64,000 bases of DNA from Mangrovivirga cuniculi (GTDB lineage: Bacteria; Bacteroidota; Bacteroidia; Cytophagales; Cyclobacteriaceae): NCBI RefSeq assembly GCF_005166025.1, contig NZ_CP028923.1, positions 124,001 to 188,000 of the forward strand. The letters run 5' to 3'. The position numbers and the translations under genes were made by a program. This document shows positions 19,945-20,798 of the stretch, in pieces. The first letter of the stretch is position 1. Each line of letters starts with the position of its first letter. The notes under the pieces were generated by a model. The model was not told the origin of the DNA, did not search any database, and worked only from the letters and a program-made list of their open reading frames with translations.

Positions 19945-20798
19945 ATGTCGTTAACTACTAAATTTCTAGCCTTTATTAAAGTTACCCGCTGGCCGAATCT
20001 TTTGATTATCGTCCTTGGTCAATACCTAACCGCCATATTCCTGATCGAATACAGTGACTGGCAAAGCATCCTTTTTAGTCCAAGGATGGCTGCTCTTTCA
20101 TTCTCAACAGTCATTCTTGCTGCATCAGGTTACCTGATCAACGATTATTATGATATCAAAATTGACTACGTTAATAAACCTCAGGAAGTAATAATAGGAA
20201 AGTATATAAAGAGAAGGCATGCGATGCTCGCTCATACCACTTTAAACTTTCTGGGTATATCCATCGGACTTCTGATCGATTATAAGGTAGGACTGGTAAA
20301 CGTACTCGCAGCCTATTTACTCTGGCTCTATAGTAATCGATTAAAAAGACTCCCTTTTTGGGGTAATTTCTCTGTGGCAATTCTGACGGCTCTAAGCATC
20401 TTTAGTGTTTTCCTTGTATTTCCTCAAAACATAGAGAAGGTACTGTTATATAGTTATTTCGCTTTTACACTTACCTTAATCCGTGAAATAATTAAGGATA
20501 TGGAAGATATAAAAGGTGATGAAGAATTTGGATGCAGGACGATTCCAATCGTTTTAGGATTGAGAAAAACAAAAAAATCCTTTATGGTATCATTATTTTT
20601 TTCACATTCAGCTGTGTTTTTGTGTGTTTGATATATAATTTAAAATCACTTGGTATATTTTTCACTATATTGAGTTTGCCGTGGATATTTTTCATCTATC
20701 AAATATACCGGGCGGACACTAAACGATCGTACAGATATTTAAGTACAACTGCTAAGCTGATCATGCTTCTCGGATTAGTCAGTATGACAATGCTTTAA
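19945..20798 (+). CDS. UbiA family prenyltransferase, frame interrupted at an A7 run
   Basis: Integral membrane prenyltransferase. The first Asp-rich motif NDYYDIKID (following SGYLI) and the second, KDMEDIKGDEEFGCRTIPI, are intact, with multiple membrane helices around them. In the first frame the protein stops at 20631 after SLFFSHSAVFLCV. Shifting back one base at the A7 run (20571-20577) instead gives ILYGIIIFFTFSCVFVCLI and two more membrane helices to a stop at 20798, about 284 residues in all, the normal family size. The run is an in-frame A_AAA_AAA heptamer. Substrate is uncertain (quinone-type or archaeal-type lipid synthesis are both in the family). Confidence 0.85.

Follow-up and report, generated by a model that had tools for sequence, protein, structure and literature searches.

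Is a prenyltransferase gene of Mangrovivirga cuniculi really cut in two at a run of seven adenines, with the cell reading across the cut by a shift of frame, or does the cut exist only in the assembled sequence? The question is raised by a UbiA-family gene on the forward strand (19945-20798) of the window, that is, the whole stretch of 64,000 nucleotides analysed here. The frame of this gene is lost once, at the A7 run. The original prediction, made from the sequence of the locus, left the choice between a missing base (through sequencing error or mutation) and ribosomal or transcriptional slippage.

One gene in two frames

From its ATG at 19945, the zero frame crosses the A7 run (20571-20577, forward strand) as ...AGA AAA ACA AAA AAA TCC..., with exactly seven A. 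As had been predicted, this places a slippery heptamer of the form X_XXY_YYZ, here A_AAA_AAA, in the zero frame. Read without a shift, the upstream portion of the gene (19945-20631, forward strand; NF009513 / PRK12872.1-3) ends in an out-of-frame tail of 17 residues, SFMVSLFFSHSAVFLCV, and a stop at 20631. The rest of the gene (20577-20798, forward strand) lies in the -1 frame and encodes the last ~73 residues, ILYGIIIFFTF...SMTML, followed by a stop codon at 20796-20798. The short tail and the -1 continuation into a normal C-terminus are both as first described.

The membership of the protein is clear over its whole length. In a profile search, the upstream ORF matches the Pfam UbiA family (PF01040) at 2.9e-29, and the two parts align in succession to NCBIfam model NF009513 (of its 293 positions, 6-220 for the upstream part and 213-292 for the downstream part). 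Since both match one model, we are dealing with a single ordinary gene of the UbiA prenyltransferases that has been split. Moreover, dN/dS relative to Mangrovivirga halotolerans is ~0.03 upstream of the A7 run and ~0.04 downstream. The C-terminal part is thus maintained without decay, with purifying selection still acting on it as on the rest of the gene. Such a low value in the tail is what would be expected if the gene were intact in the organism, and it would fit a very recent mutation too.

Uninterrupted genes in the relatives

A match to the UbiA gene was found in 34 of 38 related genomes, and in all 34 the best match lies in a stop-free open frame of 285 aa or more. The frame of M. cuniculi (246 aa, stop to stop) is the only short one among the compared genomes. 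The original prediction had named uninterrupted relatives without the heptamer as the outcome that would speak against slippage, and this is what the two nearest relatives present: in M. halotolerans (90% identical) and Marinigracilibium pacificum (76-77%), both assigned to the same genus as M. cuniculi, a single frame stays open across the site, and no A7 is present there. Neither the heptamer nor the frame offset is conserved in these two genomes.

The comparison is closest with the sister species M. halotolerans, whose UbiA protein scores 308.8 bits against NF009513 (above the curated cutoff of 288) and whose gene occupies the same collinear place. The M. cuniculi gene, as assembled, differs from it solely by the frame break at the A7 run, where one base is lacking. 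In near relatives, tblastn matches extended to residue 227-228; the tail resembles the relatives' alternative frame because the DNA itself is conserved. A conserved short zero-frame tail was ruled out as an explanation of these matches, as the near relatives have a single open frame that extends beyond the site to encode the normal C-terminus.

Slippage at the heptamer

Programmed -1 frameshifting at A_AAA_AAx is known in dnaX. At poly(A) tracts of insect endosymbionts, transcriptional rescue has been described (PMC3017870), which gives slippage a precedent. If the A7 run were genuine, ribosomal or transcriptional slippage could restore the full protein, and the locus has two of the features that this would require: a heptamer in the right phase and a conserved C-terminus in the -1 frame. 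In having an A run in the phase for a -1 shift, M. cuniculi ubiA resembles both dnaX frameshifting and Blochmannia transcriptional slippage. It differs from both in that its site is not conserved, a stimulator was not found, and the same heptamer occurs many times in genes whose frame requires no shift.

The last point can be put in numbers. The 539 ORFs of M. cuniculi that were scanned (625 kb of ORF) contain 112 in-frame copies of A_AAA_AAA, against 115 in the sister genome. With ubiA excluded, about 91 of the M. cuniculi copies (~500 kb) lie in ORFs that align to the sister species in a single frame and require no shift. Nor is the motif enriched, as the window holds 58 A7 runs against 89 expected from shuffles. 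The fold of the downstream sequence (20578-20680) is equally unremarkable, with a z of -0.33 and 66 of 200 shuffles folding equally well or better (pseudoknots are outside the model). This bears out the earlier remark that no obvious stem follows the heptamer. Given these results and the single frame of the two nearest relatives, slippage that restores the protein at this heptamer is hardly credible. It is very improbable that the A7 is real and that M. cuniculi alone has acquired slippage, ribosomal or transcriptional, to make full-length UbiA from it, and nothing at ubiA calls for transcriptional rescue.

One-base losses across the assembly

Another possibility is that the sequenced strain has truly and recently lost one base, making ubiA a fresh pseudogene or its A7 run a phase-variable homopolymer. 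A homopolymer of this length is plausible as a natural site of replication slippage, and a single strain of the species entered the comparison. The evidence against this possibility comes from the rest of the assembly.

Over its full length, the window aligns to M. halotolerans at 86.8%. For a wider view, we used about 720 kb of the M. cuniculi genome and one 648-kb M. halotolerans contig, in which ~0.6 Mb is collinear and 490 M. halotolerans ORFs have homologues in M. cuniculi. The M. cuniculi assembly carries 34 one-base frame breaks in about 31 of these 490 genes (about one every 18 kb), whereas in the reverse comparison, over 529 ORFs, there were at most 3, including one in a gene that the first count already covers. 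The direction is almost uniform: at 33 of the 34 breaks M. cuniculi is, on balance, one base short (modulo 3), and the remaining break is a gain. Most breaks adjoin runs of 4-7 identical bases, which can be A, T, G or C (G/C runs at 12). Many breaks therefore lie at runs of G, C or T, where no slippery heptamer of the A_AAA_AAA type is present, a further argument against slippage. A blastn gap count points the same way, with 156 one-base losses inside sister-species ORFs for M. cuniculi versus 80, a measure too noisy to be read per site.

Two of the frame breaks seen in the window lie outside ubiA. In lipB (octanoyltransferase; ~8462, reverse strand) there is a similar one-base break relative to M. 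halotolerans. In rimP (~60086, forward strand) the break sits at a T7 run with one base more than in M. halotolerans, the sole gain among the 34; it may be harmless, as the sister ORF has additional N-terminal residues that may precede the true start.

The identity of the broken genes bears on the choice between error and mutation. They include lon, uvrA, radA, mnmG and bshC, as well as pheS (contig C1, 247591-248612), which is broken at a G run; no second copy of pheS was found in the M. cuniculi genome. Phenylalanyl-tRNA synthetase is indispensable to a free-living bacterium. As the only pheS is broken, one-base errors certainly occur in the R1DC9 assembly. A real loss at ubiA has to be weighed against dozens of conserved genes, the only pheS among them, that are broken in the same way within 0.6 Mb. 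A free-living bacterium could not lose all of those genes, so errors must be far commoner in this assembly than real losses, and we regard a genuine recent loss at ubiA as improbable. The pattern by which long-read error is recognized (many one-base breaks at homopolymers, affecting conserved and essential genes and lacking in the sister assembly) is the one found here.

The origin of the sequence fits this pattern. The genome of strain R1DC9 (one contig of 4,661,901 bases) was sequenced with PacBio RS II (RS2) and assembled with HGAP.3; the describing paper makes no mention of Illumina and reports no other platform, and we found no figure for coverage in it. Homopolymers are a weak point of the Quiver consensus in PacBio data (PMC4853030), and a PacBio assembly with a single-base loss in a homopolymer has been reported (PMC5797582). 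Attributing the split to the assembly agrees with this published experience. The breaks of R1DC9 are likewise one-base losses at homopolymers scattered through conserved genes, although their density (~one per 18 kb) is high compared with such long-read-only false frameshifts.

Our preferred explanation, to which we assign a probability of about 95%, is that the split is a consensus base-calling omission of the PacBio RS II / HGAP.3 assembly and that the gene is intact. The consensus would have dropped one base in the A7 homopolymer, producing the apparent split, and the living organism would carry a normal prenyltransferase of the UbiA family, about 284 residues long. For this particular site, we infer the error from the relatives and from the one-base losses across the assembly. 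The gene would then look split only because error-prone long reads dropped a base here, as in dozens of nearby genes, and a dropped base is no sign of a special ribosomal trick. Of the two options first proposed, the missing base is the one that stands; slippage does not, given the uninterrupted relatives and the losses at runs of all four bases.

The split of ubiA at A7 is thus very probably not a real biological feature, and the finding matters as a caution only. The deposited complete genome of R1DC9 appears to contain a false frameshift at the density given above which, extrapolated to the whole genome, would amount to some number of the order of 250. At such a density, split genes, pseudogene calls and apparent recoding sites taken from the R1DC9 genome are suspect.
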